From Liolophura sinensis (Eukaryota > Mollusca > Polyplacophora > Chitonida > Chitonidae), in NCBI RefSeq assembly GCF_032854445.1, contig NC_088301.1, forward strand, positions 56,432,512 to 56,496,511: DNA of 64,000 bases. Direction: 5' to 3'. A program made the translations under genes and the position numbers. Within the stretch, counting starts at the first letter, position 1, and the number at the start of each line of letters is the position of its first letter. The notes beneath the pieces were generated by a model. That model saw only the letters and a list, made by a program, of their open reading frames with translations. It was not told the DNA's origin and did no database searches. Shown here piece after piece: positions 1,049-25,941 of this stretch.

Positions 1049-4000
1049 TTACCATGCTTTTGCTTTCCTTTTATTTGGATGATTTTTCCTTTCTTGCTGT
1101 TCACCTTCACCCATATCATAACTTCTCTCTAGAGGCCGCTTTTCTTCTTCACACATGGAGTCTTGTTGTCTCTTTGAGGATCTTGTAAGGTAGCGGGATG
1201 TTTGTTCAGGAGGTGTAGTTTTTGAAAATTTCTGCAGGTCTCTGGTTTGCTTCGATGGTCTCTGTGGATAAACAGTTCCTTCCTGTTTTTTCTGATTTTC
1301 TCTTTCTTGCTCCTTATTTGTAGTTGTCCTCATTACAGTACTATGGTTTGACATATTCTTTGATGAAGACTGTTGTGCCATTGGTGCAACTTTGGCCACA
1401 GGGGAAGGCTTAACTGTCCTAGATCTCTGGAAAAGTGTATTTGGATTCCATGGAGAACCTAATAAGTCCTTTTTGGAAGGCTGCACACCTTGCTCTGAGT
1501 AGTTATAGGGGGAAATATGAAATTCTGGTGAGCTGACAGTTATTCTTTCAACATCACATCCATACTCACTGTTTTCTTCATCTTCATCTTCACCTACTTG
1601 TGTGGGTTTAGGGCTGCACAGTGGGAGAGTCATCCATGTTCTTTTGGAGGTGTTCATAACCTTTGATCTTTGTTGCCTAGCTACATTAAGGGCTCCATTT
1701 TCAGACTGGTTTGAAACTACATGTAAGGATTTCACATTTGACACAATCTGCTTTATATTCTTTTCATTCTCAAACATCTGCTTTGTTAGCTCAGACTTTA
1801 TGAATCGCTGAAGCTCTAGTCTATGCCTATTACATGCCAACTCTATCTCCTGCCTCTGTTGAGATAAGAGCGAATTTGTCTCTCTCGAGGCATTTTTTAC
1901 ATTTTCCTCCAATGGTTGTCGCAAACAGCTCTCTACAGTCTTCGTTTGCTGGCGGTTATATTCTTGAAGTTGTTGTCTATAATAGTTCCCCAACTGGCTC
2001 TGTTTCACAGACAACTGATGCTGCACATTTGATAGCTCTGACAACAATCTGCAACACATAATAAACACAATAATGCTTTCTTGTGACAACTTCAAAATAG
2101 GTCTGATTCAATGGAGGCCTACAATTGCTGTAAGTCTATTTTCTTTTTATAAAAACTTTAAGATACAACGCAAATAAAGTTAATACCAAAAAAATGTTTA
2201 ATGAAAAATTATTCAGATGCAGCACCTGCTCCTTGAACTGGTTAGCAAGACAATTTCAGTCTTTCCCTGAACTAATATACAGACCTCTTTCATACCAATC
2301 TGATATAAAACTAATGTCAGGCCAAAGTGGGATTACCTAAAGCAAATCTTTGAACTTTTAAAACAGCAGTGCCCTCTACCTACTTAAATAACAAAATAAG
2401 CATTTTCAATATCAATGTAAATTATCATGAATAATCATAGCTGGCATTGATATTCAAGCAGGTAAAGGGCAATGCTGTTTTATTAGTTATAAGACATATT
2501 TTCCTTTGCAGAAGGCCAAAGAACCTGTCCTGCCAATATTATTTCTTAATTTTGTACAAAACAATAGTACAGATTACAAGCTGTAAGTCTGAAACATAAA
2601 AGTCAAAAATTCAATAATCTTTCTTTGGTAATACAGTATTCAAACTTGTTGGTAAGACACCACTGGACCCTTGCCTGCCAAAGATTTAAAAAATTTTGAA
2701 GTATGAACCTAGCTGGAACTGTAAAGTCCTTGGTATATGTCCAGACGGCAATCAGGAGAAGTTATATGTTGCTATCATACCTGGGATAGAATATGACATA
2801 TTGTGTCTCAGATCATACATACAAATAATACATATACATGTAATTTTAACCTTTTACCAACTTATATAATTTACACTATACGTTTTATGAATATAATAAA
2901 TTATAATATATGTATAAACATACAATATTATATTCAGAAATTCCATGCAAAAATTCCTTTCTTTAAAAACAATACTGAGGAAAGCATATCACGATTAATT
3001 GAACTCATACTTGTCCTCTAGGCCCTTCAGGAGATTCTGCTGTTCATTTAACATCTCTTTCTGAAACTCTGCATGGCCCTTTTCTTGATCAGCTTGCCAA
3101 GAAATTTGTTTGTCGTAGAGTTTCAGTTGTTCTGAGGTAACACTGAGTAGCTTCTGTAGCTTATCTTCTATAATATCCTGTTGTTGCATGTGACTGTTCT
3201 TCACTATCTCCATTATTTTCTCATTGTCCTGTTCCTTATTTTCCTTCAACTGATTTTTAAGTCCATTTATAATGGCATCTTTCTGAAAGGATACACAAGT
3301 GCAATAATGCACAATAATTGGGTGTAACTTCATACTTAAAAATTTCACAGACATATGAAGGCTAAGGAGTCCTTAGAGTGCATGTAGTGTGCCTCCTTGT
3401 TTCTCTCTGGAAGTTTGAAGATGAAATCTCAATATCAGTAAAAAATAAATCATTACCGTATAACCATTCAAATGCTCCTGACAAAACATATCAGCAGCAA
3501 ATTGTCTCAAAAACAATGATTGTGTGTGCAACTGTAAACTACCATCCCTAATTTTAACAAGCAATAACAGCTTTAACAGTTGGATAACAGCTTTAATTCT
3601 TATCTTAAATCTTTTTTGCAGCATGGGTATAAGTTGATGGCAACACGAATGTCTTGGGGTCATATGGTTAAGAAATTGCTACATGATACATGCATTCATT
3701 ACTAACATGAGCAGTAAAAAAAATATCACTCACTTTTGATAATTCTATATTCAATTGGTGGAGTTCTTGCTTTACTTTGTCCTGTTCACAAATTGCGGAA
3801 ATAATTTTTTCAGCATTTCTTTGGACCTCATCTGAAACTGATTAAATAGCCAAAGGTAATCTGTGTGTCAGAAATTACATGGATAAAATGAGACCACATG
3901 CATAAGTTCAGTACTTCAGAAAAAATCACACATGCCACTGGAGAATTAAATCAATAACTACATGGGTACGTATGCTTGACAAGTGATAATGTACATCAAC

Positions 4001-6417
4001 ACAAGTTCTATAATACTTACGTGCTTGTAAAGAAGTTGCTACATTCTCTTCGTTCTTCCCTTGTTTTGTCTCTAGACTATCCCTGAATGATTCTAAAGCA
4101 AATCTGACCTAAGCAAACATAAATCATACAGCTTAATAATGTTTACATTTACATCTGCCATCTAATGTATATTCAATCAAGCCTGAAAATTAATAAATCC
4201 ATACTTCCATAATGGATGCTTTTCTTATCAGTACTCTTCTTCAGCAACACAGCTAGTGTCAAACAGTCACATCATTATGGTATACTAAGCCACACATTAA
4301 TACAAGCCACTGGAATAAGAATACCTAGATTACTGAGTTAACATATGCAGCCAGTTCTCTAACCAATAGATGTAAAATATATGAGTAGTAAGAAGACAGA
4401 AATGTTTAACTTTATTGCTTAAACTTGTATTTACCGCTGACGAAGATTCACTGACGACAGACATCATATTCTGCATAAATTCTCTGAAGACAAAAAAAAA
4501 TAAAAAAATAGAGTACTGCCGAGAAGAGCATTTTCAAAGAGCCAATGAAAGTCTCTAGTACTGAATGTATAAATCTTTCACAGAATTTATACTTGCCTTC
4601 ACAAAAACTGCATGTAACCACTAATAGCCGGATTCCGAGTATAACATACCATTCATTTCACTGACATACATAATATGTTCATGTATCCTCAGGTTGACTT
4701 AATAATAAATAAAGGACAAGGAAAATAGGCAACAATTAGATGCGACAAAAAAAAGGGTATAACAGCAAAAGCATGCTTTGAGGTCAATCCAAGGCTTGCA
4801 CATGTAGATGTAGTACAATAACATGTAAGATACATTTTACTGATATGGCATTCAAATTAAGTAGAACAAGTTCAAATTAAGAATAGCTGCCACATCAGAC
4901 CCAACAAGACTTTGTGTTGTTTAGCACTCAGACCCCCATTCATTACATGAATGGCCCACATCAAAAGATAGGAAGTTTCAATTAGATGTAAAAAATTTTA
5001 TGAACAAACCAACGGGACTGATCTAGATTCTGACATATGCAGTTTACTGTGGCTTCCTACCTAGCTGAGAAACCTGGCCCACAAAGCGATCTTAGACGTA
5101 AGTCAAAATTGTAATCATTACATTTGGTATGTTCCTTTCTGTCATTCTAGCACAATAACTTACCAAGAGTTTACATTGTGAACCAATATTTTGACCTTGT
5201 TACATCAGAAATAACACTTTTAAAGTGATTTTAAGATCACTTCGTGATCCCAGGTACTGAGCTTTCAGGGCCTGGATTCCCCCTAAACCCCCTAAATTGA
5301 GTAAAGAGAGTAGTTGAGGTGCCTCAGCCAGCAAACATTAAGAAGTTTTGGGGGGGGGGGGGAATAAAAAACAAAAGAAAACGTTAGATGAGTGATTTTT
5401 TCCGGCTTTCTCTTATGATTTTAGTCACCAAAAATGCATCTCCACTGGCTGCTATTTGAAATAAAGCTTCCAAGGCCCATGGACTTGCTTAATTGGCTAG
5501 GACAGCAGTTCACCTGTCACAGCCAGAAAAGCTTAACGGCTATGGAAAAAAACCTATGAAAAAAGACTTATAATTTATCTCCTAAAAGTCGCTTAAAATG
5601 TATTCCAGGCTACCTGAACATTCACCTACTGTGGTGGGAAATATGTACATGTAGTAGGTCTGCTGTTTCTACACTGTACCAAAAATCATATAAAGTTCTG
5701 CTGCCCCTGGATATTTGATTTCTTATGAGCCTTATTCTGGGCTCAAAAATAACGGCTTCTTTTCTTTCTGAAAAGTGGACATACTCCCAGCCATCTAGGA
5801 TCTCAGAGCTTCTAAAGCCTAAAGGCTGCCACTGGACTAGGGTTGTAAGCCCTCCCTAAGAAAATTACTGACGTTACCTATGTAACCCATATGTGGTCAT
5901 ACATTTAGTTATAACCTGAATATAGAACAAATGAATTCTTAAACAAAGATAAGTTGTGATTTTCACAAATTAGACTGCACCTACCTATCTTCTCTCTCTC
6001 TTGCTTTTGACCTCTGTAAATCTTGTTGGCTAGAGGGTAAATTTCCCTCTAGCTTGAAGATAGAGCCCCTGGAAGAGTATTTCTGGAACATCCTTCGTCC
6101 AGGTGACTAAAATACAAAGAATATAAATTTACTAAGATCCAAACACTCTACTTTACTTATGAAGTAAATAATCACATCATATCAATGATCACTGACTTTC
6201 ACTTTAGAATTTTTTTCTAACAATGCTTACAGGGTTTATAGAATTGCTTACATTCCAACTGAATTTGAAAAATATCCCACATGTACATAGATTACATACA
6301 TAAATATCTGGCTGCGAGAGTGATCCAATGCATGGCTGAGACTGAGAGTCTTGAAATCCTGATTCACCACGTAAATAATCTGAAGTACCCTGACTGGAAC
6401 TGTCTTGGCTTCCTTGT
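1049..6417 (-). CDS. IHO1: IHO1 (CCDC36)-like meiotic coiled-coil protein, seven visible coding exons, N terminus missing
   Basis: Exons in transcription order: 6417-6300, 6106-5985, 4483-4435, 4108-4021, 3831-3734, 3282-3011, 2048-1049 (stop TAA at 1049-1051). All junctions are GT/AG and all phases agree, giving 581 visible residues; the human protein is about 590. The first visible exon is rich in S, Q and D (SDYLRGESGFQDSQSQP), like the N-terminal Ser/Gln segment of vertebrate IHO1. It is followed by a conserved-looking MFQKY segment, then a long coiled coil (about residues 70-300, with runs such as LNIELSKKDAIINGLKNQL). The tail is low-complexity, basic and acidic, and ends KRKAKAW. IHO1 family proteins (Mer2 and Rec15 in fungi) assemble with REC114-MEI4 on meiotic chromosome axes, bind HORMAD1 and promote SPO11 breaks. 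Identity is inferred from layout, short motifs and the neighbouring CIMIP7 gene. A different coiled-coil protein remains possible. One or more 5' exons lie upstream; the incoming phase requires two bases. Confidence 0.62.
3354..3410 (-). mobile_element. fragment of second tRNA-derived SINE family (intronic)
   Basis: The phrase around GGAGTCCTTAGAGTGCAT followed by TGCCTCCTTGTT recurs at about 58973-59010 inside a fuller copy. This is only the end distal to the tRNA-like head. It lies in the intron between exons 3734-3831 and 3011-3282 of the IHO1-like gene. Confidence 0.5.
5344..5363. repeat. poly-G run in intron
   Basis: A run of about fourteen G residues follows a short TT-rich stretch within the long intron 4484-5984 of the IHO1-like gene. 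Such runs are prone to length error in sequencing. Confidence 0.8.
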
Positions 6418-6432
6418 CTGCAATTAATTGAT

Positions 6433-6490
6433 TGATTTATTGATTGAATCGGATGAATGTTTAACACCTTCGAAGAATATTTAATTACTT
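6433..6490 (-). mobile_element. diverged SINE 3'-end fragment
   Basis: A TGATTGATTTATTGATTG tail is followed by a degenerate GTTTAACACC...GAATATTT block. This matches the 3' end of the common SINE in inverted orientation (consensus GTTTTACGCCGTACTCAAGAATATTTCAC). It lies directly upstream of the first visible IHO1-like exon. Confidence 0.45.
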
Positions 6491-6799
6491 ATAGGGTGGC
6501 AATCAGAACCATGACACAATACTGGAGCACTCTGAGTAAACCACCTGTCTTTGGCAGTAACTCTTTCCCACTTGCATCACAAAAATTTTCACCCACAGAA
6601 CGAGATCAATGTGTATGCCATTTTTCAGTTATGCAAATGATCTCCAATATGTGATAACCCATGAAAAAGGCCCTGATGAGCACAGCTGACCACTTGTTGC
6701 CACCAAGGCCCCAAGAACAGTAAATCAGGGGAATGTCTACACCTCTGATTGAACCAACACATCTAGTGCATCCAAAGTATAACCACCAGCCCAAGACTG

Positions 6800-7190
6800 A
6801 AATTACAAGTCTTACAAATATTATTTATTATAGGTACCTGCCAATGTGGTTATAAATTCAGTCTTCACCCCGAAAATAGATACCTGAAATAGGTATATCT
6901 TTATGTATGTATGTATCTTTATCAGACATTTGACAATCATGATCCTCAGTCAAAGAAAGGAAAATAGCAACCATGTCTTCAGGGAAATTATGTTATATTA
7001 TGGCTTTAATTTGGATAAAATTATCATGGTGACTGAAAACAAAGCCAACTAGTTATCCAAGGCCTTGTACACAAACAAGACACTCTTCTTCCTATGAACA
7101 CAGTCTTACTGCATACAGACCATTAATGATGTGTCCCATTTGGGAAAAGAAAGTTAGTCTTGAGATCTGATACAGTGTAAATTTTTCAAA
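6800..7190. other. non-coding stretch, nothing recognised
   Basis: AT-rich sequence with a short ATGT microsatellite near 6904. No open frame with splice sites is evident. It is probably intronic to, or upstream of, the IHO1-like gene. Confidence 0.4.
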
Positions 7191-7194
7191 TCTG

Positions 7195-7610
7195 AGAAAG
7201 CTCTGATGTTATTACAAAATTTTGTTCGGTAAAGGATGGCCCTAAACCCACATCAGAGGGCATTCCATTTAAAAACATGATGCAGTTATCTAACCTTGTC
7301 AAAAATGTCAAGGCCGTGAGTACAGCCGTTTGCTTTGAGCATCACCCAGGAATTTCTGTCCCACACAGCCCAGGAAATAACAGATTGCCATCGTGCTTAA
7401 GAGAAACCAATAGACGAATATATAAGGGACATAAGCATCTGTAAGCGACTTACGGTCGTGTAAACGTTATTGATAGATGATTTTTGCCTCAAACACCGTG
7501 AAACATCGTCGGCTACGGCATCAGGTTTTTAAATGGAGCATGCTCTGACGCTGGTTTGGGGTCATCCATAGCCCAACAAAATTTTGCCAAACCTAATGTG
7601 AGAGCAATTT
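7195..7610. repeat. inverted repeat pair, arms about 85-95 bp
   Basis: The left arm (about 7200-7275, with CATTCCATTTAAAAACATGATG) is the reverse complement of the right arm (about 7515-7605, with CATCAGGTTTTTAAATGGAGCATG). The spacer is about 240 bp. A related sequence occurs once at 38816-38865, upstream of a SINE 3' end. So the arms are probably copies of an interspersed repeat inserted in opposite orientations, or a small foldback element. Confidence 0.6.
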
Positions 7611-8169
7611 TTAACTAAATTTTCCAGTGATATAAGTAGCATGCTGGGCCCCATTAATTTATTTGTGCACAGTCTTTCTTTTAAATGTTTTATTTATATC
7701 TATGTATTTTTGCAGGCATATTGGTGTTGCTGTGCCATGTGGTCTCGCACCACAGCTAGTTTGCAAACTGTTACAGTATATATAAATCGTACAATTTCAT
7801 AAACAGAATTAAGACCATGCACAAGAATCAACACTTAAAAGACATTGCATGCTAGAATAAATCAAATTTCTCTCATCAACCCATGCACACGCTTTTTACC
7901 ATCAGGAGAGAAAATCTGAACCACTGGCCCCTGTGTCTTTCACATGGGTAACTGACATTCTGGGCTGGCTCATACACACATGCCTATCATCTGACAAAGC
8001 ATGCAGAATAGTCTGGAAGAGCAGCAGAGGTTTATCGGTCAGGTCACATACGAAAGGTTTGACACACTGAACCTACAGAAGCATGTTAAAAGGTCAAAAT
8101 GGTGATTCTTAAGTGTGGCATCTGTGCACAACCCTCCAGGGGTGTAGATGGAAAGTACCCCAAAACAAA

Positions 8170-8900
8170 TTTTATCGGTCACAAACGCGTACCAGGATGA
8201 AAGTCATTTTATACATTCCTCAAGACAACCTGATCACTGAAAGTTCATTCTTAAGTTCCCTGCCCATGCATAAAGCCACTTAAGAACCGTCCAATTCACG
8301 CTAATTATGGTTTTTATCGGTCATGTTGCTAACAAGGAACTTTTTTTTACCAAAAGATATCCTGAGATGTGCTAATTATAAATGGTAATTCTTAAGTTCC
8401 AACTCCATGCTAAAACCATTAAAGAATGGGTCAAAGGTCAATATTTGGGCTAAATTACTTTCAAACAAGGGTATCGCTCACAACTGAGTATGAGGATGAA
8501 ACTTATTTTATACATTCCTCAAGACAACCTGAAAACTAAAACCCAATTCTTAAATTCCTAGGTCATGCCCTCAGCCACTTAAGGAGAGCCCAATCAACGC
8601 TAATTATGGGTTTTATCGGTCATGTTGTGTACAAGAAATTTCCTGTATCAAAAGATACCCTAACATGTGCTACTTATAGAATGGTAATTCTTAAGTTCCA
8701 ACTCCATGCTAAAAACCATTTAAGAACAGGGCAAAGGTCAATATTTTGGCTAAATTACATGAAAACAAAGGCACTGATCATGATTATGAGGATGAAACTT
8801 ATTTTATATATTCCTCATGACAACCCGATTATTAATGACCAATTCTTAACTGTTCAGCTTATGTACTAAACCACCAATTAACGCCAATTATGATTTTACT
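8170..8900 (+). repeat. about 297-bp tandem repeat, roughly 2.5-3 copies
   Basis: The landmark AGGATGA recurs at 8194, 8493 and 8789, giving spacings of 299 and 296 bp. Blocks CGCTAATTATGG...TTTATCGGTCATGTTG and GGTAATTCTTAAGTTCC repeat in register. The array lies in the left arm of the foldback element. Confidence 0.7.
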
Positions 8901-9499
8901 GTTTCATGTCGAATACGTGAATTATTGTTGGACGAAAAATACTATTGAAGTTTCCACATGCACATATACACTTAAGAACACATAAAAAGGTATCTACCAA
9001 CCAAGGCAGCAGGACTGCCGTTCTAAGTTTGCAGCTGATAGACTAGATTTTTAAATTCATGCATTTACATGTAGCTAACTTCTACTTAGTAATACAACAT
9101 AATTCGTGCTGTCTGTGCTCTGGAGGAGTGCTGACGTTCGCCAGGCGCTTGACAAACCGTAGGACTTAAAGCAGCAGCCTAAACAGTGGCATCTTAATGG
9201 AACATGAGTCAACACTTTAATGCAATGAGCCAGTCACTGAAGAACCACCTAATTAACGCTTTTCTAACATAAGTTGGTAATGTCAGGTACGCAGGTGTAC
9301 TTGTGCAACAAGACGCATCAGGATATGGTCATTATAAGAAGGTAATTCTTAATGTCTTCAATCCTTTGATCTGATTGGCTTATAATAATGGATCAGAATA
9401 AATGAAATGGCTGAAATTATTTTCTGAAAAGGGATAATCACAATAACCCAATTGGGTGTACATGATTAAAAGTCGCTTTTTTTTAAAACAAAATCTGAA

Positions 9500-10978
9500 C
9501 AGAAAAAAACAAGAAGACTGCCGTTACTGTTGAATGTCAGATGCACTTGGAATTATTTTTGGACATCATTGCCTGTGTCATTTCTGGGAAATGATAGCTT
9601 GATGTTACTCCTCATAGTTTTCATAGTGTTCTACCTTCTACACAGAAACAAGATCGCGTTCCAACCCTAACATGCAAACACAAGCTACACAGTAACATGT
9701 CATTCTGAAAAATGTATTAACAACAATCGGAAACAATATGACAATAGTTTAATATGACAAAATATTCTCCTGAAGATTCACTTCACTTATTTCAGAGCTA
9801 GGAACAGAAAAATATTTATTATCTGAATGGGACTCAAGCAGAAGATTAGGAAAAACGTCTCGGCCTAGGTTTCCTTCGCTTGACAAGTCTTCTAGGGGGC
9901 ATGTAATTTGCTGCTTTTTATGCATTTATATGAGGAGTTAAAATAAAACTCTAACTTAGATAAACTTAGAAACTTATTTCACCTGTTATGTGTGACTATT
10001 TGCCAGCTATCACTCAGCCGTCACAGCCCTTTTTTTCTCTCTCTGTACCTTTCAATAATATTCCTATTCATCTGATAACCAGACTTCATCTGATGTCTTT
10101 CCTCGTCATGCGAATCATGTTGTTTTCAGTCTGGAACCACTGTGTTCGGGAACCATACTTTATTATTGTTGCCAAGAAATTTTTCAGACATGTTATTGTG
10201 CAGCTTGTTTTTGCATGTTGGAGTTGGAACTGTTCTTGGCAAAGGTAGTGTAAACCCCCAGGTCAGATCTGCCCAAACCTCCAGGCCAGATCTGCTCTGG
10301 GTGTTCACTAGTAAGCTAGTCACATCAGTAACCAAGCCTTACGCTTGTGGGGAAGTGCCCATGGCCTGAGACGGGGTGGAATGTCACATGACCTCCACAC
10401 CCCAGCCTTGCCATGCGGCCCTTTGTTTTAGCCCCACTCCCTCCAAGACAGCTGAGCAGTCAAGACATATTTTGCCAAGATCACAGCCAGTCTTCATTCA
10501 TACATTTCACCCAGGTGCTGTACCATCTTGACTGCCAGACGTTACCCTCTAGGCTGCTTCTCCTTGTGAGTCCCTCAGCGGGAACACTGTCCAAACTCAG
10601 AAGGAAGGAAGGAAGGAAGGAAGGGAAGAAACATATTTACAGATGCTCCTACTTTTATGCTGATTACCTCTGTCTCACATAATAAATTCTCAGGCTGTGG
10701 CACTTGTGAAAACCCACCAGAGCATTTGCGTTCTTCGTCCAGCATATATTTAACACTTGTTCCCCCAAAAGCCAGTCACGTGTCCACCCGACAACGTAAG
10801 ATAGTCTCGCAGGAGATTCAACCGCAGACAAACAGGTCTTACAGTAGGAAGGTAAAACAAATAAATCCACGAGGATTAGCCTTAAGCTCTCCAGAAAAGA
10901 CACATGCAATAATGTCCAAAAACAATTCTAATGTAATGTATGTTACATTCAAAAATCATTGCAGACTTCTCATTTCTT
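9500..10978. other. spacer of the foldback element, no supported gene
   Basis: Non-repetitive sequence between the inverted arms. Open frames of up to 107 codons occur, but they lack splice sites or recognisable motifs. It contains an AAGG microsatellite at about 10600. Confidence 0.4.
10600..10627 (+). repeat. (AAGG)n microsatellite
   Basis: About six consecutive GGAA/AAGG units are visible. Confidence 0.85.
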
Positions 10979-12835
10979 AAGTTCAGATCTTTTTTGTTTT
11001 TTAAAAAGCGACTTTCATGCACGTACCTGATTGGGTCATTCTGAAATGCTCCATCTTTTCCTTTCCAGAAAATAATTTCAGCCATTTCATTTATTCTGAT
11101 CCATTCTTAAGCCATTTATAACAAAGGATTGAAGACATTAAGAATTACCATTTTATAGTGACCATATCCTGATGCATCTTGTTGCACAAGTTCACCTGTG
11201 TAACAGACATTACCTACTTATGACAGAAAAGCGTTAATTAGGTGGTTCTTCAGTGGTTGGCTCATTATATTAAAGTGTTGACTCGTGTTTCAATCAAGGT
11301 CGCACTGTTTAAGCCGCTTTAAGTCCTACAGTTTGTCAGGCACCTGGTGAAGGTCGGCACTCCTCTGGAGCATGAAGAGCACGAAATCGTAATATTAAAT
11401 ACAAGTCAGCTAAATGCATGAATTTAGAAATCTAGTCCTTTAGCTGCAAACTTTAGAATGACAGTCCTGCTTTTTTGGTCGGTAGATAACTTTTGATGTG
11501 TTCTTAAGTGTATAGGTACATGTTGGAACTTCATTAGCATTTTAAAATCAGTCCATGTCAAAGTACCTTTTCGTCCAAAAATCAATCTCTTACTCGACAT
11601 GGGAAAAAATCCCATTCGATGTTAATTATTGTGTATTTCTTTCAGAGAGTTGTCAAAATTCAGCTGTCTGTAGTCATTCTCAGTCATTCTCGCTACCAAA
11701 ATTGGATATCGCTACACATGGATATGTTTGAAGTTCATATTTTTGCTGGGAAATGGAAGTTAGAACACTATTCCTAATTCATAATGTTAAAGTCCATGTG
11801 CTCGGTTCAACTAAAAGAAGCCATTTCCTCGGGTGATGTCACAATTATTTTAAAAAAGTGGCATACTTGGTATTGGGTGGAGTTCATCATGTTTTAAAGG
11901 AGGTTGACACCAGCTACCTAAACTGCTGTCAACTTTAGTGTAAACCTTGTTTCTAACACTACCATACTTGCAGTCGTTCACACATTTTAATATAACTTTA
12001 ATAAATGAATTTTACTTTATTCTATGTAGTATATGATCTCACAGCAACATACTTTTTATAGATGGATATTTGAAAATATCCTAAAAGCAATGAAGTTATT
12101 TGCAGAGACAGTGGTGCAGGCTCAGTTATTGGATGGTGTTTGTTCTAACCATTTGCTAGTGCAGCCATCGTAAAACAAAATACTCTTTGTCCATTGTCCA
12201 GTATTCACCTTGTTTTTGAATATTTATAAGGTCACCCGCGACAATGAGTTCTTGGTGCCAAAACTAAGCTTATGGAGTTTAACATTATGAATTAGAAAAT
12301 GTATTCAAACTGCAATTTCTTTATAATAACATGGACGTCCAACATTTCAATGTGTTGAGCTTGGCTTGTCATATGACACCGACTAAAGACCATCCCTAAA
12401 GAAACAGACATGAGTACTGGCTTAGTACATAAGCTGAACACTCAGGAAATGGTTTATAGTGATCAGGCTGTCTTGACTCGTGCTCAGTTGTGACCGATAC
12501 TCTTGTTTTTCACTTATGATTCTGTACGTTCAATGTGTCAAACCTTTCGTACGCGACCTGACCGATAAACCTCTGCTAGCCCTCGAACTAGGACCTGCAT
12601 CACTACATGTACGCATTAACAACTAGGTCTACATGTACAAACTTTATCAAAATACATGTATAATTTAAATGTCACCTGAGTGGATAGCTGAACAGATCCC
12701 TTGTTGAAATCTGGTTGGAAAGCATGCTTATAACTTGTATGCAGCTTTAGATCTTTTCAAGTCCAGTTAATGCGCTGAAAGTGAAATGTAGAAAACTGAG
12801 AGCCGGTACAAAATGAAAATCTCACGTAAAGTTCA

Positions 12836-13081
12836 TTTCATTTCATTGGTGTTTTACGCCGTACTCAAGAATATTTCACTCATACGACGGCGGCCAGCAT
12901 TATGGTGGGTGGAAACCGGGCACAGTCCGGGGGAAACCCACGACCATCCGCAGGTTGCTGCAAAACCTTCCCACGTACGGCTGGAGAGGAAGCCAGCATG
13001 AGCTCACAGCGACCGCATTGGTGAGAGATTCCTGGGTCATAACGCTGCGCTAGCGCGCTAACCAACTGAGCCACGGAGGCA
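12836..13081 (-). mobile_element. near full-length tRNA-derived SINE (family 1)
   Basis: Read on the minus strand, the tRNA-like head has an A-box region (GTGGCTCAGTTGGTTAGCG). The B-box-like phrase that follows in other copies is partly deleted here. The conserved body (GCTGGCTTCCTCTCC, GTGGGAAGG, GGATGGTCGTGGG) follows. It ends with the typical 3' block GAATATTCTTGAGTACGGCG. The copy lies about 430 bp upstream of the CIMIP7-like start codon. Confidence 0.85.
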
Positions 13082-13379
13082 CCCTCACGTAAAGACAAGA
13101 TCGAGTGCTGATCACTAAAAAGTTTGGTGTTGAAAGTAAAATCACTTGAAAATGAAGTATATATAAATACACCTCTAAATATACAATGACAAACCAATTT
13201 TACGGGGTGTATCTGCATCCTAATGAATGGCGACAATCAAACTTTACCGCTTGCATCGTTGCACTTCCAGACGGAGTTTTGTAGCAGACGACAAGACGTC
13301 GTGTTCGGAGCTCTCCGGAAATATTGCAGACTTCTTTTCATTGGCTGAACAAGAAGGTCACAAAGGTCACACTACCGAT

Positions 13380-13511
13380 CACCATGTCGTTGTTTACGCC
13401 GCCATTCCTGGCAACACACCCATACACTTTCATCATTGTTGAAGCTGAAAGATCGCTTTAGCGGGGTATCAAGGGTACTTTCGTCAACTATCATGTCGTG
13501 ACGGCTAGATT
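13380..13511 (+). promoter_or_regulatory. candidate promoter / 5' UTR of the CIMIP7-like gene
   Basis: This less AT-rich stretch contains CGCCGCCATTCC (YY1-like) at about 13397-13408. It overlaps CCATTCCTGGCAAC at 13402-13415. On the minus strand that reads GTTGCCAGGAATGG, a good RFX half-site with a poor second half. An in-frame TAG at 13506-13508 precedes the ATG. It may be bidirectional, serving the IHO1-like gene on the other strand, but no first exon was located there. Confidence 0.35.
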
Positions 13512-16264
13512 ATGGCAAACACGGGGGTTGTCGGAAGCTGGGTGAGTATGGTAACTAACGATATATTGTGTTACTAAGCCTGATAGTTGTATGCATTTTC
13601 ATTTAACCCTTCACTTCGTCTTTTGGCTTCACTTCATTCCTTGACTTGTTTTTTTTGGTTGTAACTTGTATAGGTTAAAGCATACTGCGAGCATACGATC
13701 TCAGGTCGGTGCCATATGATATCTAATATTAATTTAAGTATTAAGTTGCTTAAATTTCTGTGAAAGACTTCAAGCAGAGAAACTCACATATACAAACAAA
13801 CATCTACCTGTGCCTAATCTTTAGTATAGACTTACAAGTAAATGTAGGTATGCATGCAGCCCACAGTTCATCAGATCATGGAGGTATACATTCCACCATG
13901 ATGAAGGGTATAATTTGGCATTTTAAATGATATTGAAGTATTTTTATGATATTTCATACCACTTTTTATTACCAATACTGATTGTTAGTACGTTTTGTGT
14001 TTGCTAGATAAGTGCATGCACATATCAGTCCACTGTGCAGATAGTTTAAATTTAATGCATCATGGTTGTAAATCTTCTACATTTGACCTTAAACTACAGG
14101 CTTTGATCACCTGACAGCTATGTACAGGTAATCAACAGAAATTATGAGAATACCATTACTCATGATCTTTGTAAATGCATTTGTGTATGGTAGCTATGGA
14201 CAAAGCATAAGGTCTCCAGGAGAAAGGCCAAATATTGGTGGCTTGTGTAGGCCTACAAATACATGTATTCTCAAATATAAGGCTGAATTAATATAATCCT
14301 ATGGCTGATAATGTGGCTAGAGTGATATACATGTCAGTTGACATATATTTGCCAAGGTGTATTTAGGAGTATTGGATTACCCATCTGTACTGGTATAGGA
14401 TACATGTAGAACATATGGCTTACAAAAGAAAGATAACTCATAATAAAACATGAAGAGTGGGAGGGTTATCCTATGCAGAGTTTTATGGCATATAAACTTC
14501 ACATATTATTCCATTTTGATTTGCCATATATTTACATTCTCAGTTTTAACCAAAGTCAGAATGTAAATTAAAGTACTTCTGTGAATTGCAGTTTCCAACA
14601 GGATTCCATGGACATCTCCGAAGTAGACCAAGGAATGACTTTGTCTGTGAGTTCCGAAAACTAGCTCGACCTCAACCACCAAATAAATTTATAGCCAGGT
14701 CACAGGTATGTTTCATACTTCATTATGTAGCAGCTGTTCTTAAAATAAAGAAACTACATTTCCTCCAACAACATACATCTCAAGGCTGCAATAGATTTGT
14801 GCACTTTGTATTGCTGAATAAAAATATGCAAATTTGACCTATACAGGTATTTGTCGCTTCTTCGAAGTTCTTTTTTTGTTTTTTTAACATAACTGAAAAG
14901 TTGAATTTTCCACATCATGTTTTAGAAAACAACTTCCATACGATCAAAAAATTAAATAAGGCACTTACCCAAGGGCTTGTGGGTTACATGTTAAAGTGAA
15001 AAGTGCTTACTTAAATAGCATGAAGTTGATTTATTTATTTGATTGGTGTTTTTATGCCATACTACATGACTTCAATAGAAACAGGTATAATAGATTACGA
15101 GTTGATGGTTGAAATTTAATTTTAATCACTATGATAAACATATAGGTACAACTTTTTGTTATAATGATTGTGTGTGCCAAGATTAGAGAAATCTTACATC
15201 CAAAATGAATGAATATTAAGCAACAAATCTGAGTTTATGTCAACTGTAATGTGGGAATGTATGTTACGTTCTGTCTGTGCATTTCACACAGTTTAGGAAT
15301 ACCTTATTTAAAACACATCTTCATTTGCAATTTTTTTTTGTCTTTTCAGGTTAAGCCAACAGCACATGTGTTTTCTGCACATGACAACAGAAGTGCATTT
15401 TTTGGGGATGCTCTTTATTTTGAACAGGTGTGGAAAAATAAATTGGAAAGTTTTTCTGACATTACACAGGAATAAAATTTTGATTACCGATATACATCAA
15501 CTTCATTATCAATTTAATAATATAAAGATATTTCAACATAATGCCTTAAAGCTGCATTTCTGTATAAGATGTAGCACATCATCTTCCTGACACGAGGAAT
15601 ACGGAATTTCAAGTAATGTAAAAGAAAACATTGAAAGCCAAGAGAAATAAATTGGTAAGTCTGCTTGTATAAACAAGTTTAATAGCAAAAACTGTTGTAC
15701 CTGACAGCTGGAATATTTTTCTCGTTTCAGGGGCTGGGTCGTAGACGTGACCCTAACAAATCTTACAGATATAAACGTGACTTCATATCCTGGGTACCCC
15801 CAGGAAGAGCAGTAGAGGATTACCCTAACTACCCTTTAGCCTCCACCTATAGATTAAACTTTCAGTATGATGAGCCGGGAAAACCTGTGCCTCAAATTAT
15901 TGTAAAGAGGCCGATGACCTCTTTTGAAGGTGTGCCTACAACAACCTACAGGTATTCCCATAGCAACACTAAGCACACCAAAGAGGTGCTTGATGCAATG
16001 ACCAATGCAGCTTTTGTAAATGTAAGTTCACAAAAGCCTCACCGATCACAGAAGCCCCGGCCAGAGAGTGTAGCAAGCTGCATGACATGGCATGTCCCTG
16101 AACCCCCGAAGCGGACACGTGTTCCCTCTGCGACACAGACGACAGATTTCACTCAAGTTCCAGTGTCCACTGGGTCATCTTGTCAGATCAACATATCCCC
16201 ATCAGAGTCAAAGTCTGGAACGATTGCCTGGCCACACCCACCACAAGCTGCAGAGACTGCATGA
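13512..16264 (+). CDS. CIMIP7: CIMIP7 (C3orf84)-like ciliary microtubule inner protein, four exons, complete
   Basis: Exons: 13512-13541, 14592-14705, 15350-15427, 15731-16264 (stop TGA). All junctions are GT/AG and all are phase 0, giving 251 residues. The start is fixed by an in-frame TAG immediately upstream. Three blocks match what I recall of vertebrate C3orf84. They are VGSW...GFHGHLRSR near the N terminus, AHDNRSAF (about residues 56-63) and the start of exon 4, GLGRRRD. The middle is rich in Pro and Tyr (FISWVPPGRAVEDYPNYPL) and lacks membrane segments, as is typical of proteins lying on the inner wall of doublet microtubules. The roughly 75-residue tail beyond the conserved part is low-complexity (Ser/Pro/Thr). 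Human C3orf84 is nearer 200 residues, so the tail may be lineage-specific. The detailed function of the family is poorly known. Confidence 0.68.
15030..15066 (-). mobile_element. SINE family 1, 3'-end fragment
   Basis: TTTATTTATTTGATTGGTG followed by TTTTTATGCCATACT matches only the last 35-40 bases of the family 1 SINE. It lies in the third intron region of the CIMIP7-like gene, before exon 3. Confidence 0.6.
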
Positions 16265-17225
16265 CTCTGACATTTCACGTCCTATTTCAGCAATGACTTT
16301 GAGCTGTTGTGGCATACGTTGATGTATTGAGGAGTTCTGTTGTGACATGAATGAGACCATCATTTTAAGACATAATCCTATATTTTACCCTGTTGGGGGC
16401 AGTGAGTCGCTAATGTATAAACAACTTGTTTCTTTTGGTTTTTTTTTTTTTGACTATAATCATTGATAGATTGCTTAGCCGAGTTTGTCCAGATATGCTC
16501 ACCTAATTTTCTGATTTTGATTTTGTTTTGCATCATTTCTTACTATGGTAGTAAATATAGGCCTGGATTGTTGGTTGTCAAATTACAGAGGCCTTGCATG
16601 TTGATTAGTTCTGGCAATTTTTTGTATACAATTTTCGAGCCAATGAAACAATCAAACATGAAATATTTTTCAAGGCCAGAGTTTCGAGTGATGTTTGGAT
16701 GAAATGTAATTCAGTATTTGGGGCAAGGTGGAGCAGTTTATGTAAAGATTTGTGATGTATAATACATGTTTTGATCCATTTTAAGGAAGGAAAAAAGAAA
16801 GAAGAAAACATTGTTTTAGACTAACTTTGTTGTCTTATGGGTAAATGTGGATTAGGGTTAAGACTATGTGGATCTCCCTTTATTGTAAAATTTGATAGAA
16901 ACTTGGCTACTGCATTTTTGTTGGTCAGGTATAGATATATCTACCTGTATGTATCTTATATATATTATTTTATATTCATAATTCACTACATTTGTATTTA
17001 GTATGTGCATGTCTGCTGGCATTATCTTTCTCTTATAACACCGAGAGGCAGTAATATAGCTTCAAAAGAACAACTATGCAGGCATCAGTGTCTATCTATG
17101 CAGAATTACAGCATCTTCAATCTGGCACAAAAAAGGCCACCGTCTCCAGTTAGATGTTGTAAAAGCTTCTTATGTGAGATTGCAGGCTCAAGCTCTTGTC
17201 AAATAAACTTTTTTCTTTAAATGTA
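16265..17225 (+). other. 3' UTR region of the CIMIP7-like gene
   Basis: AT-rich non-coding sequence after the stop. An AATAAA at 17202-17207 is the most plausible polyadenylation signal. No other feature is seen. Confidence 0.45.
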
Positions 17226-18117
17226 GATGAAAAATTAATGCAGTTTTCCTTTAACTTGTTTGCTAAGAGAGTTTTTGTTCATCAGAAAAATGTTGTATGA
17301 ATGCCAAAGGCTATAATAACTCAGTATTTATTTATTTGATTGTTGTTTAACAGCATACCTAAGAAGTTTTGGCTTCCTTTACAATGCAGCCAGCGCTGTG
17401 CGCGCAGGAAACCAGAGCTTAGACTAAACCACTTGAATCTGGCAAATTTAATACAGGTTTTCCACATTTGACATTGAGTGATATTGATGGATAAACGAAC
17501 GGTTTTCAGTAACTTTCATTCAGGACCGGACAGTTCCACCACAAACTGTATATAGTCACCAAGACTTTGAGAACAATAAAAGCAGCCATAAGTCCTTGAG
17601 GTAGGGGTCTACCCTAAATGACCATAAATTTCGTCCATAACAGACTTGCCCATTTTTCATGATCCTGAGAGTTTTTTTGACTGTAGAAAGGTATTTTGAG
17701 GTTTGCTTGGAACATGGGATGATATTCTACTGGAAAATTGTAAGTTTCAGCACCAAAAATAATATTTTGTGACATTCACTTGCCTCTAAAAATGCACTTT
17801 TGTTTTAGGAATTTTAGGGCAATTTCCCCCCATCTCTCCTTCCCACCCCAAAGAGAGATCTCATGTTTTGTGGGCAAGCACTTTGACCACTTGGCCACAC
17901 CCCAATTTTAGCTTTATCTTCAATTAAGGCTTGGTAAGCATGGTCACTACTGGCCAGGCAATACTACTAACACTTATACAGCCAAAAGGGCAAATCAGAG
18001 CAGGATTTGAACATTTTCAGTCAAGGGCCTGTTGCAGCAATCCAACATTATACTGTTTAAGAACTGCATGCAAATGAGCTATGATGACAATACGGGGTTA
18101 ATCTGCGCTTTTGTTTA
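17226..18117. other. intergenic, no gene seen
   Basis: AT-rich sequence with a short SINE-tail-like TTATTTATTTGATTG at 17328-17345. Nothing else is recognisable. Confidence 0.4.
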
Positions 18118-18262
18118 TGAATTTTTTTGATTGTTATTTTATGCCATACTTCAGGGTATTTCACATGTTATATGACACATATGCCAGCATGATGGAGGGA
18201 GGAAACTAAGCCTAGCCCGGGCGAAACCCAGGACCATCCGTATGTTGCTGGTACACCTTGAA
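18118..18262 (-). mobile_element. truncated SINE family 1 copy
   Basis: The 3' half is present: a TTGATTGTTATTTTATGCC tail, CAGCATGATGG, GGAAAC, and CAGGACCATCCGTATGTTGCTGG. The tRNA-like head is missing. Confidence 0.7.
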
Positions 18263-18934
18263 TCTGCTCATAGCATTTGAAATGATGACTCAGGACATGT
18301 GCTATCTTGAAAAACTAAGTTGCGCTAAAATGTTCACATCCTAAAATTCAATGGAGATCTTGCTTAAATCTAAATACACTTTTGAATAACTTGCCCCAAA
18401 AAACGAGAATCATACTCAATGGCACGGGATACAAACAACATTTTTAGGACTTTATTAGTTAGTCTCCATTCAACACTACAGAATAACCACAGTACCTTTC
18501 ACTCATCAAGCTTATAAATATATGCCAGTTGTGTTCAGTGATATATCAAAAGCACATGAGCCCTTGAGTGCCAGTGTCAGCATTATTATGGCAATATCAT
18601 TCACAAGGTCTCAAATTTTCATCCCAAGCCAAGGGAAAATTGTGAGATCTTTAACAATAAATGTTCACCGTAACACAGCAAATGTTGACGTCTGATGTAC
18701 CAGTCTCTACTGAGTCAGTGATAATGTCTCGTGCCACGACCACAAGTCAATCACCCAAATTCAAATCTATAATCCATCTCTGTCTTTTGGGGGATGTCTT
18801 TTTCTGTATTTCTTTGATGGTCTACAAATAAAAATAAATGATGTCTGCATAAGACAAAGTAAACTTTACAGTAACAATATTTTTGTTCTTGAAAGAAGAG
18901 CATGGCAAAAAATCTATGATCAGCTTCAATGAAT

Positions 18935-19390
18935 AGAGTAATGTATGATGAACTTTATAGAGTAAAGTAATATGCAATGCAAAGTTCTCTTGTGTTATTA
19001 ACTTCACAGGGTAATGCGTAATGATTCTCACAGAGTTCAGTAATGTGTGCTGAACTTCACAGAATAATGTATGATTGAACTTGACGGTAATTTGTGCCGA
19101 AATTCACATAGTAATGTGTGATTAAACTTGACGTGTGCTGAACTTCACAGAATAATGTATGACTGAACTTGACAGTAATGTGCGCCAAACTTCACAAAAT
19201 AATATGTGACTGAACTTAAAAGAAATGTGTGCTGAACTTCACAGAATAATGTATGATTGAACTTGACAGTAATGTGTGCTGAACTTCAAAGAATAATGTA
19301 TGAATGAACTTCACAAAGTAATGTATGCTGAACTTCACAAAGTCATGTGTGCTGAACTTCACAAAGTGATGTGTGCTGAACTTCGTTTTT
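18935..19390 (+). repeat. minisatellite, about 23-bp units pairing as about 47-bp dimers
   Basis: Alternating phrases GTGTGCTGAACTTCACAG and AATAATGTATGATTGAAC recur about ten times with substitutions and small indels. The array decays at both ends. Confidence 0.75.
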
Positions 19391-21144
19391 CATTGCACAT
19401 CCCAAGGAGCCAAACCGAGCATCAAACAGGTCATTGGAAATAATGAATGGCTTATGTTGACAATAATATGTCAAAAACTTGACAATCTGACAGACAGAAA
19501 CACAGCAAATTACAGAGTTGTCTGTGGAGGTCAAATAGATGCTGGTTATTTTGAAAGTGACTTACTTTGGATACCACCTGTGCTTTGTGGTAAAGAACAT
19601 GCCTGAAAGCTCACTGATATTTGGTCCTGTGGGTTTGAATCTATACTTGTCTGATATCCGATGCTGGACTCGCAAAGCAGAATCGCCCTGTAAATTATGA
19701 TCAGTAATATTTCAGATACTGTAATACACAAATAAAAATAGAAAGTAACAGATGGACTGATATTTATGTAACCGTAAAAGTGACCTGGTTATCAAAAAAA
19801 ATCTAAGCAGAAAAAAAATACACCTTTACAAGTGTCAGTTATGTTTTTTTTTATTAATAAGCCGTTCTCACGAAATAAATGACCAAAAGAAATGCACAAT
19901 TATGTTCTGCACATGAGACCTTTGTTAAGTAATGCGCACAACTTAAAGATTTCATGCTCACAACATAATTGTGCATTTCTCCTTGGTCAATTATCTTGTG
20001 AATTCATTTCTAGGCTTTGTTTCAGTTCTGAATATACATTATACATGATACAATGATGTTAAACTCCATTTATACACAAAGCTATCTCTGACATAAGTCA
20101 GGTTTAGTCTAAACTTGTGGTATAATTCCTAAACTTACTTTTAAACCTAAACACAAAGTTCTCAATTTTGTTATGAACATCTAAGATAACTTGTAAGTAT
20201 TAAAATTCCCCAGGTAGGTAACAATTTCAGAGAATTAAACTGTTTTGAAATGATGACTGAGTCAGAATTAAGGCTAAGACATCTTTGTGATTCTGTGTTT
20301 GTTTACTTTAGGTTTAATGTCATTTTCAACATGATGTCAGTAACTTCATAATAGTGTTTCCTTGTAGCAGACCGGCCCTAAGTAGTGCTACCTCACTTAA
20401 ACAACATACCAAGGACACCAGACCAGACACCTTGTCATAATGACAAAAGGCTGACAGATACCTGGGATTCCTCATAAGCTGAGTGCCAAGCCAAGGAAGT
20501 GCAAAGATTACTGATTTTCCGACTCACCCCAAGTGAATGTTTAACCTCTTGGCCACTGCAGTGTAGTAAATCAGATTGTAACTGCATCTAAGCAGATAAA
20601 CTCTGTGTTGCATGACACCCATCAATTTTGAGATTCTCAAAACTTCTCAAAACTTTACAACTAGTTTTGTGAAGGTATTTAAAATTCTGTTTTCAGAAAG
20701 AATATCTTACAGAAAGAGAGTGCATGTAGAAGGAATCATACAGACACATAACACCTCTGAAAATCAACACTATGTCAGTATAGTCTTGAAAAACTGAAAT
20801 TTTCACCAAGGTAGTAACACTGCAATGGCCTTTGTTCCATAAACTTGTCAAAAAGACCAATGATAGTAGGTTCAGTAGAAGGAACATAGCCTACCTCCGC
20901 AAGGTGTAAGTTATCCCTGGGTATTGGCTGAAATATGAGACATTCAAAAGTTATTTCAACAAGGATAAACCTTACAGTAAATCCAAGCCTGTCAAATTAA
21001 TATAAAAGTTAACCTGTCTTTGTCATAAGTAATTGTCAATGTGGACCCAACACTGTTAATCATATTTTTTATTTATACTGTTAACTATTTATTCAACATT
21101 GCATATAGCTGTCATTAGCTATCCTGTTACAAAATGTGGTCTTT
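19391..21144. other. intergenic; one diverged repeat, no gene
   Basis: About 20350-20560 resembles the body of the second SINE family, with GAGTGCCAAGC and a degraded tRNA-like end. The remainder is AT-rich without supported exons. Confidence 0.35.
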
Positions 21145-21320
21145 ATTTATTTATTTATTTGATTGGTGTTTTTACGCCGTACTCAAGAATATTTTACTTA
21201 TACGATGACGGCCAGCATTATGGTGGGTGGAAACCGGGCAGAGCCTGAGGGAATCCCACGACCATCTGCAGGTTGCTGACAGACCTTCCCACTAATGGCC
21301 GGAGAGGAAGCCATCATGAG
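21145..21320 (-). mobile_element. SINE family 1 copy lacking the tRNA-like head
   Basis: (TTTA)n tail, GATTGGTGTTTTTACGCCG, GCCAGCATTATGGTGGGTGG, CCATCTGCAGGTTGCTG and GCCGGAGAGGAAGCCATC are all in order. Homology stops at about 21320. Confidence 0.85.
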
Positions 21321-21359
21321 TGTGGTCTTTTAAAAACATCAAAAAGCCTATATGTAGAT

Positions 21360-22410
21360 GTAACAAGGCATTCAGAGAACACTTGTAGCTCACCTGATCG
21401 TAAAACTGCACGTTCAAATCAAGTGATACGTTCAAATACTGAATCAACCAAACTAAAGCAGAATAGCATTGTCATACACAGACATTATTCTCTGCTTAGA
21501 CAGTGCCAAGATTTTGCCATTAAACCAACAAGAAAGGACAAAATTATTATACTGCCACAGATAGGGCTATAAGCATAAAGACTGCAGAGCAAAGACTTCA
21601 TATCTTCTACAGTTTTAAATAGTTGCAGTGGCAAAAGACAAAAGGCGCAGTAGGCGTTTGGCAATCCATATACTATGGGTAGGAATTGCAATCCTGTGAA
21701 TGACTGAGCAAGTGTTGAGCTATCATAGTAAAAAAGCTTCCTTGTGGGGCTTTCGAGCAACAACTCAACGGTATGGTCTTTTTTAGATGCACATCCCTAC
21801 CCACCATTGGCTACATGTGTATAATAGGTGGCCACTGCAGCCCTCTGAATGGCTGAGGAAATACTCAGCTGACAACAGTCACTGTGTGCGGGGATGCTTT
21901 AAACATTTCATCACAGTATAGGAAGGCACACGCACTGGTCAGTGCCATAAGCTCCTAGAACTAATAAAGATGTACTATAAGAAAGTGTAGCCCTACGTGA
22001 AAGGCTTAGAGAAATCTGTGTTCATTAGAGAATAGAGGAGGTGTTCCACAAAACAGGAACATGATGACAAATCTGGTAAAATCGTCAGAACCTGGTTACC
22101 AATACCTTTCCTGTTTCCCTACATGTAGGTAGGCCTAGGCACAAAATGTGTAGCCCAACACGACCTTTTCTTGATTACTACAGATAACTAATTTCAAGTC
22201 TATAAACCTCGAAAAAAAATAATCACAGAGACCCTGTGTAGAAGAAATTGTAACCCTGTATGGAGGCCTTCTAGAGAAGATTACTACAGAAAATAAAATG
22301 TTTATATCACTGATACATTTTTACACTGAATGTTTATCAATCAAAATGAATAAAACATTCACAAAGCCAATAAAACTAAAACCAATAAAAAATGTTCAAC
22401 CTTTCAAAAG
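21360..22410 (+). repeat. about 1-kb interspersed repeat, copy A
   Basis: Diverged but collinear with 62855-63830. Shared phrases include TGTTGAGCTAT.ATAGTAAAAAA and GGTGGCCAC.GCA.CCCT. Also shared are GACAACAGTC, CTACATGTAGGTAGG/CTATGTAGGTAGG and TTTATCAATCAAAATGA/GTTTCAATCAAAATGA. No coding capacity was found. Confidence 0.6.
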
Positions 22411-22539
22411 TAGGCCCTATGTACATGTAGCTGTGCACATCATACACAGAATCTGGATGTCCAAAATACTCCCTTTCATCCCCAACATTTGAAAAAATTA
22501 AAATGTGTCTTCAGCTTGCACATGCACTCGCATGCATGA

Positions 22540-23330
22540 AAGGCATTATTACGCCAAGTACCTGAATGGGGGTAACTATGAAAATAAAAATGAGAATTAG
22601 ACTGTCATTATTATTAACCATGTAGATGTTTAGATGATATATACATATACGTATGTATTCTTGGGATTTAATGTGGTACGTAACAATTTTTCAGTCATAT
22701 GACGACAAGGAGTCATTAGGTGTGTATACATATATATTGTGTCTTCTTGTGGCAGGGCAAGTCCATGTGATTGAAATATCATGCCGAAGACACCACTCCC
22801 AGTCACATTATACTGACACCGGGACAACCAGCCATGTTTCCTTGCTCTAACCTCTCAGTACTGAGTGCCAAGCGAGGCAGCAACCTGTACCATTTTCAAA
22901 ATCTTTGGTATGACACACCACGGGTTTGATCCTGGGGCTCTCCCGACCTCAAGGTTGACGTTCTAACCATAAATGTCCTTAGATGATATAAACAATATAC
23001 ACAAAGTTTAATGGAAATTGGTGCCATACTATAGCAGGGGATGCATGGACAAAATCTGTGTACATGAAAATCCATTATTGCAGTAAGTACCTAAACGGGA
23101 GTACTTACAATAATAATTACCTGATTAAAATTAAACTTAAACATGCAAAAGTTTAGGTGATAGGGAAGATGTATGTTAAGTTTCATGGAAATAGGTTCAG
23201 TACTACAGGAAGACTTGCATGGACAAAATCTGAATACATGGCACTATCACAAGAGTCCTAAATGGAAGTAATTATGAAAATAATTACCCAACTGCTGTTA
23301 AACATACATGCACAAGTTTGTAATTTTCAT
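22540..23330 (+). repeat. diverged about 174-bp tandem repeat split by a SINE
   Basis: GCATGGACAAAATCTG occurs at about 23044 and 23218. AGTACCTAAACGGGAGTA-like phrases recur at about 22557, 23088 and 23256. A family 2 SINE copy (22690-22970) separates the first unit from the rest. Confidence 0.5.
22690..22970 (-). mobile_element. second tRNA-derived SINE family, near full-length
   Basis: The order of blocks matches 58920-59275: TCATATGACGACAAGGAGTC, ACATTATACTGACACCGGG, CTGAGTGCCAAGCGAGG. The right end is tRNA-like when read on the minus strand, with a B-box-like GGATCAAACCCGT at about 22923-22935. Confidence 0.6.
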
Positions 23331-24435: not shown

Positions 24436-24490
24436 AATGTTGATTTATTTGATCAGTGTTTTACGACATACTCAAGAATATTTCACAAAG
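24436..24490 (-). mobile_element. SINE family 1 3'-end fragment
   Basis: GTTGATTTATTTGATCAGTG, TTTTACGACATACTC and AAGAATATTTCAC match the terminal 50 bases of the family. Confidence 0.7.
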
Positions 24491-25380: not shown

Positions 25381-25384
25381 TCCA

Positions 25385-25918: not shown

Positions 25919-25941
25919 TTTTTTTTTTTTTTTTTTTTTTG
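25919..25941 (+). repeat. poly-T run in first intron of CFAP100
   Basis: About 22 consecutive T residues. Confidence 0.9.

Follow-up and report, generated by a model that had tools for sequence, protein, structure and literature searches.

A CIMIP7 homologue head to head with a candidate IHO1 gene in a probable lophotrochozoan genome

Proteins of the Mer2/IHO1 family escape detection by sequence searches because of their rapid evolution; CIMIP7 (C3orf84) evolves slowly. At human 3p21.31 C3orf84 and IHO1 (CCDC36) are presumably adjacent and divergent. The two human genes have been placed in one shared interval, for which the order is not given. In the window analysed here, the whole stretch of 64,000 nucleotides, a minus-strand coiled-coil gene and a plus-strand four-exon gene are both present and diverge from one another, as the first-pass annotation had described in proposing that they are the same pair. 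Half of that proposal, the CIMIP7 gene and the divergent arrangement, is confirmed, and the other half, the IHO1 gene, is plausible. The reading that we prefer, with a probability of about 0.58, is that a CIMIP7 orthologue lies beside a probable IHO1 and that the pair would be a linkage handed down from the bilaterian ancestor.

The plus-strand gene spans 13512–16264 and encodes 251 amino acids in four exons, with all three introns in phase 0 and bordered by GT-AG. Exon 1 (13512–13541, MANTGVVGSW) ends at a GT donor in phase 0, exon 2 (14592–14705), with GT-AG borders and also in phase 0, was matched in its own genome, exon 3 (15350–15427), with its splice borders, carries the FSAHDNR motif and the Pfam HDNR match, and exon 4 (15731–16264) contains GLGRRRD, one Mn-type unit (STYRLNF) and the stop. 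The protein matches Pfam HDNR with 47.9 bits against a cut-off of 27 (E=2.5e-12). Against provisional human reference sequences, each of which is recognised by Pfam HDNR, it scores 81.3 bits (E=2e-23) with C3orf84 and 36.6 bits with TEX36. The agreement with C3orf84/CIMIP7 (PF15115) takes in the start of the protein (GSW..GF.GH.RS), the blocks PQPP..F, FS.HDNR..F and QG[LI]GRR.D, a single unit of the form [TS][TS]X4[YF], and the cysteine-tryptophan block at the C-terminal end (SVASCMTW / GVSECLNW). The window protein differs in its length, 251 amino acids against 204 in the human reference, and in an additional C-terminal tail; searching the PDB sequences with it gave no convincing match. On these comparisons with provisional references that Pfam recognises, the gene is a convincing C3orf84/CIMIP7 homologue, and its initial description as CIMIP7-like holds.

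The Pfam match alone does not name the subfamily, since the TEX36 reference scores 296.5 bits with HDNR, far above the 41 bits of the C3orf84 reference. This would favour the plus-strand gene being another HDNR protein, similar to TEX36, with which it shares FS.HDNR and GLGR. However, the N-terminus is unlike that of TEX36, the score is the lower of the two (37 against 81 bits), and there is a separate TEX36-like gene on C6, which prefers TEX36 at 35.8 bits over C3orf84 at 18.9. Given the preference for C3orf84 and the better TEX36 candidate on C6, the TEX36 identity was rejected and is considered very improbable. A PDB sequence search with the C6 HDNR exon returned no convincing match. The search of the whole genome with the HDNR family recovered only the C6 exons, below the cut-off, and missed the window gene itself, so further HDNR genes may be present.

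The syntax [TS][TS]X4[YF] is that given for Mn-type microtubule units in PMC10973386, and STYRLNF is aligned in place with SSYQADF, although so short a motif occurs commonly. The protein has another Mn-like stretch, TTTYRYSH, which departs from that published syntax. As an HDNR protein with an Mn-type microtubule-lumen-binding unit, the lophotrochozoan orthologue of C3orf84/CIMIP7 would be predicted to form part of the lining of doublet microtubules, in sperm or in motile cilia of other kinds. That the host is a probable lophotrochozoan, as had been suggested, is borne out by a Lox5-type homeobox followed by KLTGP in the genome, which we take to be a lophotrochozoan signature; the search query itself contained KLTGP.

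The divergent neighbour is on the minus strand, with splice sites that were picked by eye from the genomic sequence. Its first identified coding exon (6300–6417) encodes a disordered-looking N-terminal part, and an exon upstream of it is missing. It is followed by an exon with RRMFQKYSSRGSIF, at which the alignment to IHO1 starts (5985–6106), by exons at 4435–4483, 4021–4108, 3734–3837, and 3011–3282, and by a large exon that carries the end of the coil and then a low-complexity tail (1053–2048). The gene had been thought to reach its limit at 1049. In-phase splicing from the donor at 1053/1052 instead leads into an overlooked exon at 387–459 and then off the window, through exons at -286 to -421, -687 to -787, and -1180 to -1311, also joined by in-phase splices, on which grounds an end at 1049 was rejected; the gene then runs to about -1311. 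With the leftward exons included, the partial protein is 729 amino acids. Within the 900 nt scanned after each stop, AATAAA or ATTAAA is found at +109, +193, +431, +596, and +655 from the new stop, whereas the stop at 1049 has a single such signal, at +702, which is weak evidence for the gene end because the nearest such signal of the CIMIP7-like gene is itself at +937. All 10 of the genome matches to the coiled-coil protein at E<=0.001 fall at the window locus. The gene looks real and, at the sensitivity of the searches, it and the CIMIP7-like gene each have one locus only.

In common with IHO1/CCDC36 (Mer2 family, PF15771), the coiled-coil protein has, by eye, a disordered N-terminus, a coiled coil, and a disordered basic tail. 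The placing of the coil after a disordered N-terminal part is likewise read by eye and, as the decoy described below indicates, is not specific to IHO1. The provisional IHO1 sequences used for comparison are recognised by PF15771 with 1025 bits (human) and 931 bits (mouse). The best alignment is collinear between residues 45–208 of the window protein and 82–263 of human IHO1, has a score of 93, and begins ahead of the coil, at MFQKYSSRGSIF / IFTKYQTKPQLF. This score was reached by 11 and by 10 of 1000 heptad-preserving shuffles, and window shuffles reached the alignment score in 11/600 cases for human and 11/600 for mouse, which do not count as independent comparisons. When the protein is reversed, its score falls to 54 against human IHO1 and 58 against mouse.

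It may be instead that the plus-strand gene is CIMIP7 and its neighbour an unrelated, lineage-specific coiled coil, the likeness to the human pair arising from coincidence and the coiled-coil background. This alternative, to which we give rather less than an even chance, draws on the decoy, an unrelated CFAP100-like coiled coil of the window, which scores 89 against the coiled-coil gene, compared with 93 for IHO1, and 64 against IHO1 itself; the decoy removes the score of 93 on its own as proof of IHO1. The N-terminal 80 residues show no excess over shuffles against IHO1 1–130 (score 28, reached by 1195/2000; reversed piece 33), and little excess is seen for the C-terminal ends (204/2000). No family match was obtained either: at E<=10 Pfam IHO1 (PF15771) matches none of the five whole or partial versions of the protein that were searched, this vertebrate IHO1 model being possibly too vertebrate-centred and HMMER filters discarding most weak matches. 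The same family searched against the whole genome gave a single match of 16.3 bits, on C3, and did not recover the window locus; the provisional IHO1 1–248 had no match in the genome, in a search that is weak and reads exon by exon. Comparison of profiles gave a probability of 0.6%, with controls at 0.1–0.2%. PDB searches with the N-terminal 251 amino acids, the C-terminal 348 amino acids, and the left-flank exon found no convincing match, the C-terminal piece having none at all and one search giving three weak matches, the best of them (E=0.046) to a bacterial kinase. Against an unrelated coil stand the collinearity of the IHO1 alignment and its start before the coil, at a score that about 1% of shuffles reach, and the presence of the gene at one locus only, on a chromosome with 3p21.31 families. 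In a shuffle test the motif F.KY gave 1/20000, which is not proof, because the motif was defined from the alignment after this had been viewed.

The SSM1 motif of Mer2/IHO1, W..K..L, is universally conserved according to PMC8848140. It was not found in the identified exons, to which the first coding exon does not belong; that exon was not found, a fuzzy search for one resembling FNVWNIKEML giving nothing credible. A phase-compatible candidate with W..K, on the minus strand from 11085, was rejected as it is inside a repeat arm. On the upstream minus strand from 6418 to 26000, W..K..[LMIF] occurs only in WIAKRLL at 21668, rejected for having neither an in-frame ATG nor a good donor, and in WHPKEKF at 23611, which sits in an MRPL42-like exon. 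There are 16 such strings in the six frames of the window, and the upstream ones are at chance level. SSM2 is presented in PMC10997794 as a C-terminal acidic patch with serines; the window protein has an acidic stretch, MESEEDTNRTFDDLLSSP, about 65 amino acids before its end, and no SSM2-like C-terminus is evident. The additional C-terminal exons also look unlike IHO1. A REC114 family match is present in the genome, on C3.

For the IHO1 call the alignment is collinear but weak, at about 1% of shuffles, and not specific; PF15771 gave no match and SSM1 was not found in the identified exons. The sequence does not establish the identity, which is only plausible. We infer this identity, the function that goes with it, and the conservation of the adjacency itself. 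The fast-evolving coiled-coil gene would probably be IHO1, predicted to recruit REC114-MEI4 to the meiotic axis, where it would bind HORMAD1, and so to enable SPO11 breaks.

Of four 3p21.31 families sought in the genome (DAG1, QARS, IMPDH/GMPR, and APEH_N), DAG1 is on C7, the chromosome of the window, at 39.97 Mb, and the QARS N-domain is on C7 at 43.25 Mb. IMPDH/GMPR is at 58.26 Mb on C7 and also on C5 and on a bacterial-looking contig, so that C7 has one of two animal-like loci, and the APEH_N search had no match. As in ancient bilaterian linkages, DAG1 and QARS share the chromosome with the window, but at about 13 and 16.5 Mb from it, which is linkage at the chromosome scale and not local order. 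The neighbours identified in the 184 kb that were read are an MRPL42-like gene, the CFAP100-like DUF4200 gene, NOMO, and a CPT-like gene; simple USP, GPX, and RHO patterns of the 3p21.31 neighbours are absent from the same 184 kb. The local scan consisted of these patterns and of Pfam applied to selected open frames. Of the deep microsynteny that had been proposed, chromosome-scale linkage with human 3p21.31 is supported, through DAG1 and QARS. There is some circularity in calling IHO1 from the neighbourhood and in then treating the pair as a case of conserved synteny.

If the pair is ancient, gene order would offer a way to locate invertebrate IHO1 genes and to test how the control of meiotic breaks evolved, and it would suggest that a gene of the sperm axoneme and one of meiosis are regulated in common. 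Without firmer proof of IHO1, there remain a good CIMIP7 annotation and the chromosome-scale linkage with human 3p21.31.

The distance between the two genes is taken from 6417, because the first coding exon of the coiled-coil gene was not found, and the gap from there to 13512 is about 7.1 kb. It is possible, at a little under even odds, that CIMIP7 and IHO1 have been head to head since before the protostome-deuterostome split, held by putative shared male germ-line regulation, and that in this lineage a palindromic transposon of 4.5 kb entered the gap and left the pair unbroken. The gap does contain a long, transposon-like palindromic repeat of 4.5 kb (8023–12577), with outer arms at 8023–8084 and 12516–12577. 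A 301-base piece of this repeat matches 30 further places in the genome, its own other arm among them.

The plus-strand gene (exons 13512-13541, 14592-14705, 15350-15427 and 15731-16264) has four exons that encode 251 aa, and each of its three introns is in phase 0. Its product scores 47.9 bits against the Pfam HDNR model (PF15115), and against human references it scores 81.3 bits with C3orf84 (CIMIP7; 48/156 identities) versus 36.6 bits with TEX36, another HDNR relative, which bears out the CIMIP7 call of the first-pass annotation. The HDNR model appears to have been built round TEX36, since human TEX36 reaches 296.5 bits with it and human C3orf84 41 bits. The C3orf84 alignment retains blocks at the N-terminus, at HDNR and at the C-terminus, together with one Mn-type unit; passages of PMC10973386 place C3ORF84 among the Mn-repeat proteins, with the Mn syntax [TS][TS]X4[YF]. 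From its sequence, the plus-strand gene can for practical purposes be regarded as CIMIP7, and a microtubule-lumen role in cilia may be carried over from the family. An HDNR-like gene on contig C6 is nearer TEX36 (35.8 bits versus 18.9 bits for C3orf84, human references); it was picked up below the family cut-off, in a genome search that missed the plus-strand gene.

The minus-strand coiled-coil gene, with its first identified coding exon at 6417-6300, had seven exons as initially joined. An end at 1049 was rejected; the stop there is in frame just beyond a donor, splicing at this donor keeps the phase into 459-387 and then into three further exons left of the window, which reach -1311. The first-pass gene is present, but does not end where proposed. 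The chosen junction phases of the extension (2, 0, 1, 0) are all consistent, and the evidence for it is good, if below transcript level because the splice sites were picked by eye. All 10 genome matches of the protein at E<=0.001 fall on its own locus, and there is no convincing family match in Pfam.

The odds that this gene is IHO1 (CCDC36, Mer2 family), as first proposed, are somewhat better than even, an estimate that leans on the neighbourhood. The human and mouse IHO1 references score 1025 and 930.9 bits with Pfam IHO1 (PF15771). The best local alignment with the human protein is collinear and begins upstream of the coil (MFQKYSSRGSIF / IFTKYQTKPQLF), and its score of 93 is reached by 11/1000 and 10/1000 heptad-preserving shuffles, about 1%, and by 11/600 window shuffles; for residues 45-210, 3/1000 heptad-preserving shuffles reach the score. 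Mouse IHO1 gives the same picture (11/600 window shuffles) and is not independent of human. Against the proposal, PF15771 has no match to the protein at E<=10, and a decoy, the CFAP100-like coil of the same window, scores 89 with the minus-strand protein and just 64 with IHO1, so that scores near 93 arise between unrelated coils. The N-terminal 80 residues alone are at chance level against IHO1 1-130 (score 28, reached by 1195/2000 shuffles), where the reversed N-terminal piece scores 33, and for the ends of a shorter model against the IHO1 C-terminus 204/2000 shuffles reach the score. The comparison with hhalign gives a probability of 0.6%, versus 0.1-0.2% for control sequences (one reversed, five shuffled), and BLASTP against IHO1 gives E=0.075.

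Two motifs are described for IHO1/Mer2, in passages of the respective papers: SSM1, the universally conserved W58/K61/L64 (PMC8848140), and SSM2, which lies at the C-terminus and carries an acidic serine patch (PMC10997794). SSM1 is absent from the minus-strand exons found, the gene's first coding exon being missing from the model, and SSM2 has no clear counterpart in the protein. The minus strand farther upstream (6418-26000) has two strings that preserve W..K..[LMIF], which is chance level because 16 occur across the six frames of the window. WIAKRLL at 21668 (minus) lies past CIMIP7 and has neither an in-frame ATG nor a good donor; the other sits in an MRPL42-like exon at about 23611 (minus; PF10210, MRP-S32, E=1.5e-8).

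We take human C3orf84 and CCDC36/IHO1 to be adjacent and divergent. Published gene lists group both with DAG1 and APEH in a single interval of chromosome 3 (PMC8016853), and with QARS1 and IMPDH2 in a single locus (PMC12964191); both lists are alphabetical, so that they give neither adjacency nor orientation. The 609 Mb genome (632 contigs), in which the window lies at C7:56432512-56496511, was searched for four families of human 3p21.31. DAG1 has a single locus, on C7 (60.36 Mb), as do the three exon matches to the QARS N-domain; IMPDH/GMPR has a locus each on C7, C5 and a bacterial-looking contig, and APEH_N has no match in the genome. The location of DAG1 and QARS on C7, while REC114 (C3), the TEX36-like gene (C6) and the homeobox matches (0/22 on C7) lie elsewhere, supports chromosome-scale conservation with human 3p21.31. 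Within the 184 kb read around the window, of which selected open frames were scanned with Pfam, the neighbours identified are MRPL42-like, CFAP100-like, NOMO and CPT-like genes, and simple USP, GPX and RHO patterns are absent from that read (KLHDC8B, CCDC71, C3orf62 and LAMB2 lay outside the search). It therefore seems that, if the pair is ancient, few other local genes stayed with CIMIP7 and the IHO1 candidate. Titles, abstract openings and passages on CIMIP7/C3orf84 contain nothing on gene order, no relevant title is among the matches listed for CCDC36/IHO1 with synteny, bidirectional promoter and molluscs, and within this literature search no publication that presents the pair as conserved was found.

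The gap between 6417 and the CIMIP7 start codon at 13512 is about 7.1 kb and contains a palindromic repeat (8023-12577; outer arms 8023-8084 and 12516-12577), which is probably a non-coding transposon. An internal piece has 30 other genome matches, one being its own other arm; diverged relatives occur at many places in the genome. The CpG ratio is raised (0.82-1.15) over about 12.8-13.6 kb, part of which is SINE-like on visual inspection, and a putative promoter shared by both genes could possibly lie in this region.

The lophotrochozoan origin thought probable at first agrees with a Lox5-type homeobox at C1:74024237, directly followed by KLTGP as read from the genome (the query itself contained KLTGP), which we take to be a lophotrochozoan signature. 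At C536:12213-13576, on a small contig, a strong IMPDH match is largely a single open stretch, and this contig appears to be contaminating bacterial sequence in the assembly.

A multi-exon gene with a DUF4200 exon (27037-31891, plus strand), resembling CFAP100, is a probable second ciliary gene near CIMIP7. In the right flank on C7, a NOMO gene (plus) precedes a CPT-like carnitine acyltransferase gene (minus). A DDE-type transposase remnant and weak reverse-transcriptase fragments lie at 42557-43189 and 46619-47201, both minus. To the left, a coding-like stretch is duplicated on the plus strand (-11385 to -10843 and -9600 to -8842); neither copy matches Pfam, the two are nearly identical (436/438 bases), and the duplicated stretch and the coiled-coil gene face each other tail to tail.
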